Source: Sphaerochaeta associata (lineage in GTDB: Bacteria; Spirochaetota; Spirochaetia; Sphaerochaetales; Sphaerochaetaceae). From it: DNA of 64,000 nt. Below the pieces are notes generated by a model. It saw only the letters and a program-made list of their open reading frames with translations, made no database searches and was not told the DNA's origin. The stretch spans positions 1,488,001-1,552,000 of the forward strand of contig NZ_CP094929.1 in NCBI RefSeq assembly GCF_022869165.1. Reading direction: 5' to 3'. Made by a program: the position numbers and the translations under genes. This document shows positions 9,392 to 17,878 of the stretch, piece after piece. Numbering within the stretch: position 1 is the first letter of the stretch; every line of letters begins with the position of its first letter.

Positions 9392-10705
9392 TCAGACATC
9401 CCATGCAGGATCGATTACAACCGGAACAATCTGCCTTTCATAGATGGAGAGTCTTCCGCTGAAGAGGTAGGCGACGCTGCACACAAAGAAAAGCGATGTT
9501 GGATTGCCGAATCCATACAGCTCCAACCCCAACACGAAGCAGGCCAGAGGCAGCTTTGTACTACCGCTGAGCATTCCGATGGCTCCGAACATTGAAAGAG
9601 CGGAGACGGGGATGGGAAGAAATTGGCCGAAAATGGCTCCACTTGTGGCTCCAATGACAAGGATTGGTATGACTTCACCCCCGATAAACCCGCTCCCTAT
9701 GGTCAGCGCCGTCAGCAACAACTTAAAAAGCGGTGCAAAATTGCTGGTGGTGCCGTACTCAGCCTCGATGATTAGGTCGAGGGAGAGTCCGTTGTAGGCG
9801 AACGAGCCTGTCAATGCAAAGATGCCAAGGGATGCAAGCAGCAGCAACGTGCTGGCAAGCAAGGCTTTCTTGTACGGGTTTGCAGTAATGCGGGAGAAAA
9901 GGGTTTTTGTCAGATGGATCAGGTGGCAGAAAAGCCGGCTGGCCAAGCCCAGCAGGATTGATAGTGCCAACAAAATCAAGAGAGTAGGGAAATCGAGAGG
10001 AAAAGCCTCGGCGCGTACCGGAACCAAAGTGTGCGTATGCAGCGCCTGGCTTACCATGCAGGCTGTGAATGAGGCGGTCAGACAGGGAAGCAGGGCGTCG
10101 GTTCTGTTTACCCGGGGGTTGGAGAACTGCATCCCGAACAAAGTGCCTGCTATCGGGGCGTTGAACAGGGCTCCGAAGGCCGCCCCTGCTCCACTGATCA
10201 GCCAGATCCCCTTCTGCTGGATTGATTGCGGGCGATGCAGAAATCGGGTTTCCAGGCGTGAGCAGTAGCTGCCGATGGAAGCACCCACCTGTACGCCGAC
10301 CCCTTCCTTTCCCCCCGATGCCCCAACCAGATGGGTTATGAAGGTGTTGAGCAGCAACAACGGAGCCATTTTGGTGGAAATTTTTTGCTTATGGGCATCG
10401 CGGTCCTTCTCATATCCGATACTGGTAGGGTGGGCGATATCGAGAATTCCTTGATTGATCAAGTCGATCACCTGCGAACCTCCATCCTTCAGATAGGGAC
10501 CGAGTTTCTGATAGAGCAGCGCGGTAACAAGAGCCCCGAGGGGGATGAGCAGGAGGATCCACTGATGGTGGGTCCTGATCTCGCCTGCCATTGCCACGAG
10601 GAAGGTCAACAGGCTGATGACCGGTCCGATAAGGAGTCCGAGCAGAATGGCTCGGACCGTCCAAGCCAGGATGGGAATTGAGAAATGACGTCTTCTATGG
10701 TCCAT
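9392..10705 (-). CDS. CLC-family anion transporter, CLC-F (fluoride/proton antiporter)-like
   Basis: A 438-residue polytopic membrane protein. The second CLC signature reads GGKEGVGVQVGAS: the gating glutamate is kept, but the usual GREGP proline is replaced, as in CLC-F proteins (GREGT). Other CLC-F-like stretches are KMAPLLLLNTFITHL, GAAFGALFNAPIAG, GGEVIPILVIGA and YLFSGRLSIYERQ. CLC-F exchanges fluoride for protons. The start at 10705 (MDHRRRHF) has no ribosome-binding site; a -10 hexamer lies exactly 6 nt upstream, predicting a leaderless message. A longer in-frame extension overlaps araD antisense and is rejected. Chloride transport cannot be excluded. Confidence 0.82.
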   Translation of the reverse strand: MDHRRRHFSIPILAWTVRAILLGLLIGPVISLLTFLVAMAGEIRTHHQWILLLIPLGALVTALLYQKLGPYLKDGGSQVIDLINQGILDIAHPTSIGYEKDRDAHKQKISTKMAPLLLLNTFITHLVGASGGKEGVGVQVGASIGSYCSRLETRFLHRPQSIQQKGIWLISGAGAAFGALFNAPIAGTLFGMQFSNPRVNRTDALLPCLTASFTACMVSQALHTHTLVPVRAEAFPLDFPTLLILLALSILLGLASRLFCHLIHLTKTLFSRITANPYKKALLASTLLLLASLGIFALTGSFAYNGLSLDLIIEAEYGTTSNFAPLFKLLLTALTIGSGFIGGEVIPILVIGATSGAIFGQFLPIPVSALSMFGAIGMLSGSTKLPLACFVLGLELYGFGNPTSLFFVCSVAYLFSGRLSIYERQIVPVVIDPAWDV

Positions 10706-10711
10706 GTTGCC

Positions 10712-10740
10712 ATCATACGAGCTTTTCTCGATTCTTGGAA
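10712..10740 (-). promoter_or_regulatory. Promoter of the CLC gene, predicted leaderless
   Basis: Minus-strand TTCCAA (10735-10740), 17-bp spacer, TATGAT (10712-10717), then 6 nt before the ATG. Transcription would begin at the A of the start codon. No Shine-Dalgarno sequence is present. Confidence 0.5.
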
Positions 10741-10762
10741 CCTCAAGTGAGGCTACTTTGCC

Positions 10763-10791
10763 TTGACAACACACAAAGGTTGGCACACACT
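10763..10791 (+). promoter_or_regulatory. Possible promoter of the araD operon
   Basis: TTGACA at 10763-10768, 17-bp spacer, then CACACT at 10786-10791. The -35 is perfect but the -10 is poor (3 of 6), which would fit an activator-dependent sugar operon. A short imperfect palindrome (CCTCA-AG-TGAGG, 10741-10752) lies between this and the divergent CLC promoter. Confidence 0.3.
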
Positions 10792-10816
10792 TGCTTTTGG
10801 TACGCAAGGAGAATCT

Positions 10817-11518
10817 ATGCTGAAAGAGTTGAAAGAGAGAGTATGTGAAGCAAATCTGCTGTTGCAGAAACACAAGTTGATCACCTTTACCTGGGGCAAT
10901 GTCTCCGAAGTGGACGATAATCGCGAATTGATGGTAATCAAGCCGTCCGGTGTTGCATACGACGACCTTACTCCCTCTTCGATGGTGGTTGTGGAGTTGG
11001 CTACCGGCAAACGGGTTGAGGGTTCCTACAATCCTTCGAGCGACACCCCGACTCACCGGTATTTGTTCAATCACTTCGAAAAGGTCAATGCAGTTGTGCA
11101 CACCCATAGTAGATGGGCTACCATTTTTGCGCAGGCAGGACGAGGAATTCCCGCATTGGGAACAACCCATGCCGACTATTTCTATGGGGAGATTCCCTGT
11201 ACCAGGGCGATGACGCCTGCCGAAATACAGGGAGAGTACGAAATGGAGACGGGCAAGGTAATCGTCGAACGCTTTTTGGACATTGATCCCAAAAGCATCC
11301 CTGCCGTCCTGGTGAACAGTCATGGACCCTTCTGCTGGGCAGATGATGCAGTCAAGGCTGTTGAATATGCGGTGGTGCTCGAGGAGGTGGCGATGATGGC
11401 CTACCATTCGATGCTGCTCGGCGATGCAACGTACATGCCGATGGATGGTCATCTGCTTGATAAACATTATTTACGGAAACACGGCTCTCATGCCTATTAC
11501 GGTCAGATTGGTAAATAG
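10817..11518 (+). CDS. araD: L-ribulose-5-phosphate 4-epimerase (class II aldolase family)
   Basis: A 233-residue AraD-type protein that interconverts L-ribulose-5-phosphate and D-xylulose-5-phosphate. Class II aldolase zinc ligands are visible in VVHTHSRWA (HxH) and in the later [18 protein letters not shown] and [11 protein letters not shown] match phosphate-binding segments of the family. The start at 10817 is set by AAGGAG 6 nt upstream; an earlier ATG at 10763 lies in the promoter. A FucI/AraA-like isomerase follows 11 nt later, so the pair probably channels a pentose into the pentose phosphate pathway. No kinase is present here. Confidence 0.88.
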
Positions 11519-16496: not shown

Positions 16497-16525
16497 TTGA
16501 CTGCAGCCGAACATATTTCTAGAAT
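16497..16525 (+). promoter_or_regulatory. Promoter of the fluoride riboswitch transcript
   Basis: TTGACT (16497-16502), 17-bp spacer, TAGAAT (16520-16525). The predicted start (about 16532) coincides with the first bases of the riboswitch aptamer, which is strong positional support for both elements. Confidence 0.75.
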
Positions 16526-16532
16526 CAGTGAC

Positions 16533-16595
16533 GGTGATGGGGTTCGCCTTCATAATGAAAACCGCAGAGCTTTGAAAGCTGCTGATGACTCCTGG
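16533..16595 (+). promoter_or_regulatory. Fluoride riboswitch (crcB motif)
   Basis: Consensus blocks of the fluoride aptamer appear in order: GGTGATGGGGTTCGCC (16533-16548), AACCGC (about 16560-16565) and GCTGATGACTCCT (16581-16593). These form the pseudoknotted pocket that binds fluoride with Mg2+. The 3' strand CTCCTGG can pair, with one bulged base, with CCGGAG of the downstream ribosome-binding site (GGAGG 16615-16619), so translational control is the likely mechanism: fluoride holds the strand in the aptamer and frees the site. There is no obvious intrinsic terminator before the ATG. Confidence 0.9.
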
Positions 16596-16624
16596 AATAG
16601 ATTACGTTCTTGCCGGAGGTTTGT

Positions 16625-17878
16625 ATGGCTTTCAGTCTTGCTGCCGTGGTTTTGCTGTGTCTGTTCTTGGATTGGCTCTTGTCCAAAGCGCGTATTCCTG
16701 CCCTCATCGGCATGCTTTTTGTGGGAGTTCTCTTTGGACCGGCGGTCCTGAACTTTTTGGATCCTTCCTTGCTTGCTGTGGGATCCGATCTGCGTATGAT
16801 TGCATTGATCGTCATCCTGCTTCGTTCAGGATTGGAGCTTTCGCGAGAAAGTCTGCATAAGGTCGGTTTTCATGCAATTCTTCTCTCCTTTCTTCCCGCC
16901 TTGTTTGAAGCATCGACCGTCATGCTCATCGGGCCTCCTTTGTTGGGCCTTTCGCTTCTTGAAAGTGCAATCCTTGGGTGTGTCTTGGGAGCTGTCTCCC
17001 CGGCTGTCGTGGTGCCGATGATGGTTTCCTGCATCCAGGAGAAACGTGGTACCGAGAAAGGCATCCCAACACTCGTGCTCGCCGGTGCCAGCATGGATGA
17101 TGTCACCGTCATTGTTGCATTCAGCATCGTTCTCGGCCTGTATGTCGGCGATACCATGAATCTGGCATGGACCCTGGCAGGCATACCTCTTTCCATAATC
17201 TTTGGGATTGCTGCAGGTTTGGCCATCGGGCTTGTCTTGATACGGATATTCGTGCGGTTCAATCCGCGGGCAACCAAACGGGTATTGTCCATGCTGATGA
17301 TTTGCATTCTTCTCGTAGAGCTGGGCGATGTCCTGGAATCGTTTCATATCCCCTTTGCAGCCTTGCTTGCGGTAATGTCCATCGGCTTCATAATTTTGGA
17401 GAAGCGAGAGCATATGGCTCATGAGCTTTCGGCGAAGCTAGGGAAAATTTGGGTTTTTGCCCAAATACTGCTCTTTACCATGGTTGGTTCGCAAGTTGAT
17501 CTTACTGCAGCATGGGAAGTGGGCCTGGATGCGATACTCTTGATTCTCATCGCGCTTATCGGACGGAGCATGGGAACGTATCTGTGCACTCTTGGAGGCG
17601 GCTTCACAGCAAAGGAGAAGGCTTTCATTGTAATTTACTATCTGCCGAAAGCTACAGTCCAGGCTGCCATCGGGGCCACACCGCTTGCGGTAATGGGCTT
17701 GCACGGCATGCCCGTCAGGGCGGGACAGGTGATTTTGGCTGTCGCAGTGATGAGCATCATCCTGACAGCCCCCTTGGGAGCAATCGCCCTTGATTGGGCG
17801 GCACATCATCTTCTGAGTGTTGATACAAGAGATACTTTCAGTAGTTCGGTGGCGGTGAACGAGGGAGCTGCAACCTAA
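16625..17878 (+). CDS. Cation:proton antiporter (CPA superfamily), fluoride-riboswitch controlled
   Basis: A 417-residue protein with about 12 hydrophobic segments and the Na+/H+ exchanger domain layout: IPALIGMLFVGVLFGP near the N terminus, the LLRSGLEL segment, GAVSPAVVVPMM, and GASMDDVTVIVAFS, whose acidic pair lies where CPA transporters bind cation. It has no C-terminal TrkA-type domain. The start at 16625 follows GGAGG by 5 nt; an in-frame ATG at 16610 precedes that site. The upstream fluoride riboswitch implies induction by fluoride, perhaps to restore pH after HF entry or supply the gradient for fluoride export. The substrate is inferred only from the family. Confidence 0.85.
   Translation: MAFSLAAVVLLCLFLDWLLSKARIPALIGMLFVGVLFGPAVLNFLDPSLLAVGSDLRMIALIVILLRSGLELSRESLHKVGFHAILLSFLPALFEASTVMLIGPPLLGLSLLESAILGCVLGAVSPAVVVPMMVSCIQEKRGTEKGIPTLVLAGASMDDVTVIVAFSIVLGLYVGDTMNLAWTLAGIPLSIIFGIAAGLAIGLVLIRIFVRFNPRATKRVLSMLMICILLVELGDVLESFHIPFAALLAVMSIGFIILEKREHMAHELSAKLGKIWVFAQILLFTMVGSQVDLTAAWEVGLDAILLILIALIGRSMGTYLCTLGGGFTAKEKAFIVIYYLPKATVQAAIGATPLAVMGLHGMPVRAGQVILAVAVMSIILTAPLGAIALDWAAHHLLSVDTRDTFSSSVAVNEGAAT

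Follow-up and report, generated by a model that had tools for sequence, protein, structure and literature searches.

A covariance search of the window, i.e., the whole 64,000-nucleotide stretch of the Sphaerochaeta associata genome analyzed here, confirmed, at the level of sequence, a genuine fluoride riboswitch ahead of a gene for an NHA2-like cation:proton antiporter (Table 1). We consider it probable that this leader is a fluoride-ON translational riboswitch on a single-gene transcript, and that the antiporter is the riboswitch-driven fluoride-defence transporter of its lineage, replacing CrcB. New here are the presence of the antiporter in 29 of the 32 riboswitch-bearing genomes of the order Sphaerochaetales, the occurrence of the same pairing in other phyla, and the near-exclusion of crcB.

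Table 1. Features of the riboswitch–antiporter locus and of the CLC-F-like gene (window coordinates).
Feature	Position	Strand	Details
CLC-F-like protein	9392..10588	-	GSQVI, GKEGV, GEVIP; C-terminal part of ORF 9392-11467
Promoter-like site TTGACT-N17-TAGAAT	16497..16525	+	TTGACT 16497-16502, TAGAAT 16520-16525, spacer 17 bases
Predicted fluoride riboswitch aptamer, RF01734	16524..16601	+	P1 16533-16548, P3 16564-16582
Pseudoknot loop strand GGGGU	16539..16543	+	Pairing picked by consensus fold of 25 aptamers
GAAAGC	16574..16579	+	Overlaps P3 on its 3' side; predicted to pair, when fluoride is absent, with GCUUUC, antiporter codons 2-3 (16628-16633)
Pseudoknot strand ACUCC	16588..16592	+	Also anti-Shine-Dalgarno strand (CUCC 16589-16592, GG 16594-16595)
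CC-GGAGG	16613..16619	+	Shine-Dalgarno GGAGG 16615-16619 plus its stem extension
CPA2 / NHA2-like cation:proton antiporter	16625..17878	+	417 aa; PF00999 and NHA2 similarity

The Rfam fluoride model (RF01734) matched the leader at 44.1 bits, above its gathering score of 34 (E 5.9e-9 in the whole-window search), all 64 of its 64 positions being aligned. The genome has no other fluoride riboswitch: a search of the single-contig 3.55 Mb assembly for a second one found none. The architecture of the family is present, with GGUG/CGCC, GCAG/CUGC and a GGGGU:ACUCC pseudoknot containing one G-U pair, and the element is a leader of a fluoride-related gene that is conserved in relatives, where the pseudoknot is replaced by GAGGU:ACUUC. 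Fluoride binding by the aptamer is what the known riboswitch class leads one to expect. The original prediction of a crcB-motif aptamer, made from the letters with a covariance search proposed as its check, is upheld by this above-threshold score and by the presence of P1, P3 and the pseudoknot; its description as near-perfect was somewhat too strong, since aptamers before the same antiporter gene in other phyla score up to 58 bits. The promoter-like site agrees with the consensus at 10 of 12 positions, ranked top of the five sites found (1.6 in shuffles), and its layout upstream of the aptamer is common to close relatives. From its end at 16525, the RNA start is predicted at about 16531-16533, coinciding with the first aptamer stem (16533), so that the aptamer does begin at the predicted transcription start, as had been proposed.

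The aptamer is separated from the antiporter ATG at 16625 by 23 bases. Folding revealed two mutually exclusive partners for the ACUCC strand: GGGGU in the pseudoknot, or the Shine-Dalgarno sequence through CUCC:GGAG and GG:CC. The predicted free fold leaves the Shine-Dalgarno sequence mostly paired; imposing the aptamer partly releases the first three Shine-Dalgarno bases, and the last two G remain paired with coding sequence. The free fold lies about 12 kcal/mol below the forced aptamer fold, with pseudoknot and ligand excluded from the count, so that switching, if it takes place, would need to be under kinetic control. A translational ON switch appears to be the best reading of this leader, the ON direction being taken from the known class. 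In the absence of fluoride, ACUCC would pair with GGAG of the Shine-Dalgarno sequence and bases further upstream with codons 2-3, which, we propose, would keep ribosomes off; with Mg-fluoride bound, ACUCC would be locked in the GGGGU:ACUCC pseudoknot of the aptamer, releasing the Shine-Dalgarno sequence and allowing the NHA2-like CPA2 antiporter to be produced from a presumed single-gene transcript under riboswitch control.

The linkers of relatives measure 16-65 bases, and most retain the option of pairing ACUCC with the Shine-Dalgarno sequence; for lineage representatives, a group picked after the folds had been seen, this retention, tested against shuffled linkers, had a combined p of about 8e-4. 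The proposed masking of the ribosome-binding site by the 3' strand of the aptamer draws support from folding and from relatives, short of proof; this leader alone pairs no better than shuffled linkers (p 0.2 to 0.4). Control by transcription termination rather than translation is very unlikely here. Many fluoride riboswitches do have overlapping terminators (PMC2864571), and in a distant subgroup of antiporter leaders (L006, L021, L028, L031) the GAUGACUUC strand forms part of a hairpin with a U-run after it, upstream of the antiporter, a terminator-like layout. In the leader studied here, however, no U-run occurs between aptamer and ATG, and neither the terminator scan nor folding detected a terminator between the aptamer and the gene; terminator control was rejected for it on these grounds. 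Within this one gene family, leaders apparently switched between terminator control and masking of the Shine-Dalgarno sequence, with the same aptamer strand reused.

The encoded protein has a single Pfam match, PF00999 (Na_H_Exchanger, 126 bits against a cut-off of 26.2), and its closest solved relatives are the mammalian NHA2/SLC9B2 structures (PDB 7p1i, 7b4l; E 5e-42), in agreement with the CPA-type antiporter originally proposed. The similarity to NHA2 settles the fold, and with the DD ion site and the CPA2 lysine the protein carries the domain, the resemblance to solved members and the residues of a CPA2 protein. Among 68 relatives, E95, R314 and K342 are invariant (R314 and K342 at 100% each) and D158-D159 is conserved in 96%. 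The DD, K, R and E positions are shared with NHA2/SLC9B2; the antiporter differs from it in being bacterial and, presumably, fluoride-controlled. Since the cation:proton signature is intact, cation:proton exchange is the default function by sequence. The sequence matches at E 0.01 were all NHA2 entries, with no solved fluoride-transporting CPA protein among them. Assignment to the CrcB or CLC family was rejected, PF00999 being the sole Pfam match. The nearest named relatives come from a Spirochaetales MAG (85% identity) and a Sphaerochaeta MAG (65%).

The antiporter was called at E below 1e-70 in the 139 genomes of Sphaerochaetales. The riboswitch was detected in 32 and the antiporter in 35 of them, with both in 29, the riboswitch only in 3 and the antiporter only in 6 (p 1e-20). 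All riboswitch loci read in the order lead directly into the antiporter except L013, L027 and L030; the riboswitch of L027 precedes crcB and that of L030 an ORF resembling a MutS-type protein by eye. The antiporter is the standard riboswitch target in the order. The aptamer does precede an antiporter rather than crcB, as the original prediction stated, and this is no oddity of the organism, being the rule in riboswitch-bearing genomes of the order. The aptamer of one Sphaerochaeta locus (L033) was missed by the Rfam cut-off and recovered with a model built in this analysis. At L013 (G091:C1:2695118-2695201), a second fluoride riboswitch is followed by a short frame that starts like the antiporter (MAFSLS...) and breaks off, probably a decayed antiporter duplicate; genome G091 additionally has an intact riboswitch–antiporter pair.

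Outside Spirochaetes, an Rfam aptamer was found before the antiporter gene in L034, L035, L036, L037, L043, L048, L051 and L054, and a second class yielded more such pairs. On a tree of 65 antiporter proteins, the riboswitch label was clustered and deep, requiring 9 changes against 18.6 when shuffled. The antiporter gene usually seems solitary, and no recurring operon partner was obvious from ORF positions and N-termini in 13 neighbourhoods from other phyla.

A search of the S. associata genome for crcB found none. Among the 240 genomes of the second class, 67 have the antiporter and 89 have crcB, with both in 3 against 25 expected (p 2e-12, kinship ignored); crcB is thus present in 3 of the 67 antiporter genomes versus 86 of the 173 others. 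It was absent from all 28 non-Sphaerochaetales genomes, from several phyla, that brought the antiporter, and from all 35 antiporter genomes of the order, where crcB genomes number four, too few to weigh alone. This near-exclusion, in counts that ignore kinship and include many incomplete genomes, is a strong hint that the antiporter substitutes for CrcB, either as a fluoride transporter or through control of pH; common descent of the genomes sampled may account for part of it. A phylogenetic artefact of the sampled clades seems to us a rather unlikely cause: the counts take no account of relatedness, and kinship within the second class is not given, yet the pattern recurs across several phyla (0 of 28 with crcB), and a tie to fluoride is seen where both genes co-occur, in two of the three such genomes of the second class. 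In G239, two separate riboswitches precede crcB and the antiporter, one each. In G351 (G351:C97:3040-5194, minus strand), riboswitch, crcB and antiporter are lined up consecutively, apparently as a fluoride operon that contains both genes.

The genome encodes one CLC protein, which is CLC-F-like, lacks a riboswitch of its own and lies about 6 kb from the antiporter on the opposite strand. Among solved proteins it matches CLC-F best (6d0j, E 1.2e-35, versus 1e-9 for Cl- CLCs), and its motifs are close to the CLC-F signatures (GNNLI/GMGLI, GREGT/V, GEVTP), none being exact. The minus-strand ORF 9392-11467 extends upstream across an oppositely oriented araD-like gene (10763-11518), and the true start of the CLC-F-like gene is probably near 10600. 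The distance from such a gene to the antiporter is about 8 kb or less in G091, G099, G100 and G101, and about 15 kb or less in G069 and G073. Given this protein, the antiporter need not be the only fluoride defence of the genome. Across the order, where the CLC type was assigned from scores in most genomes and from motifs at about 30 loci, CLC-F-like proteins occur in 13 of 35 antiporter genomes versus 69 of 104 others, a weaker exclusion than that of crcB in counts that ignore kinship; crcB and a CLC-F-like protein are both missing from 22 of the 35. In the 28 antiporter genomes outside Sphaerochaetales, the CLCs with readable signatures are of the chloride type (GREGP).

The textbook guess would link the riboswitch–antiporter pair to homeostasis of ions or pH. 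In its usual form, the antiporter would be an ordinary Na+/H+ (or K+/H+) exchanger that restores cytoplasmic pH and cation balance after entry of HF releases protons, with fluoride leaving through the CLC-F-like protein or as HF. We regard this role as quite possible, though short of probable: D158-D159, K342 and R314 align with NHA2, the CLC-F-like gene is a near neighbour, and the same role is given to riboswitch-linked Na+/H+ antiporters (PMC11139923); on the other side stand the antiporter genomes of the order that lack both crcB and a CLC-F-like protein, and an exclusion of crcB that is not expected of a pH helper. Alternatively, the antiporter could substitute for export indirectly, admitting protons against Na+ or K+ and so cutting the membrane pH difference and the trapping of fluoride, which would exit as HF. 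Such a mechanism would suit both the intact cation:proton site and the near-exclusion of crcB, and fluoride-adapted yeast are described, in PMC11139923, as tolerating lower internal pH; it requires a particular transport direction, and we judge it unlikely.

Returning to replacement of CrcB, we hypothesize, tentatively and as a possibility that we somewhat doubt, that bacteria have, in the NHA2-like CPA2 clade, another fluoride exporter family in addition to Fluc/CrcB and CLC-F, one that is proton-coupled and has the CPA fold. This would explain the riboswitch linkage in several phyla as well as the rare co-occurrence with crcB; the transported ion itself is one that we infer. A CPA-type fluoride exporter may have been proposed before, a possibility given no weight here, and a published one was not found in the open-licence literature searched.

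Recognised bacterial fluoride exporters are of two unrelated kinds only, according to a 2024 review (PMC11139923). These, Fluc and CLC-F, occur together in about 3% of strains, and their mutual exclusion resembles the near-exclusion of antiporter and crcB (PMC11139923). CLC-F (PDB 6d0j) and Fluc/CrcB are riboswitch-linked like the antiporter, but their folds are unrelated to that of the CPA2 clade, for which fluoride transport is hypothetical. Na+/H+ antiporter genes rank as the second commonest targets of fluoride riboswitches, next after fluoride exporters (PMC11139923), so the link between riboswitch and Na+/H+-type antiporter is not new. The riboswitch-linked Na+/H+ antiporters of Baker et al. 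2012, as described in PMC11139923, pair the same kind of gene with the same kind of switch; by comparison with that description, the antiporter here is the standard target in its order and almost without crcB. The leader shares P1, P3, the pseudoknot and the 5' leader position with RF01734 riboswitches; it differs in its target, which is a CPA2 antiporter gene and neither crcB nor eriC, and in being likely translational, whereas an overlapping terminator is often reported. This antiporter clade, its prevalence, the near-exclusion of crcB and the change of platform within the family were not found in the open-licence literature searched.

Should the clade replace CrcB, describing its members as pH helpers would be mistaken or incomplete, and genomes listed as exporter-less would in fact possess an exporter. 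The antiporter as a stand-in for CrcB is a testable suggestion. A different transporter-like gene (MENTWLTSALWIGLALVSSLISIRVAISVALIEI...), a Kef-type antiporter by eye, is preceded by riboswitches in the second class (L148, L154, L155, L157, L162).
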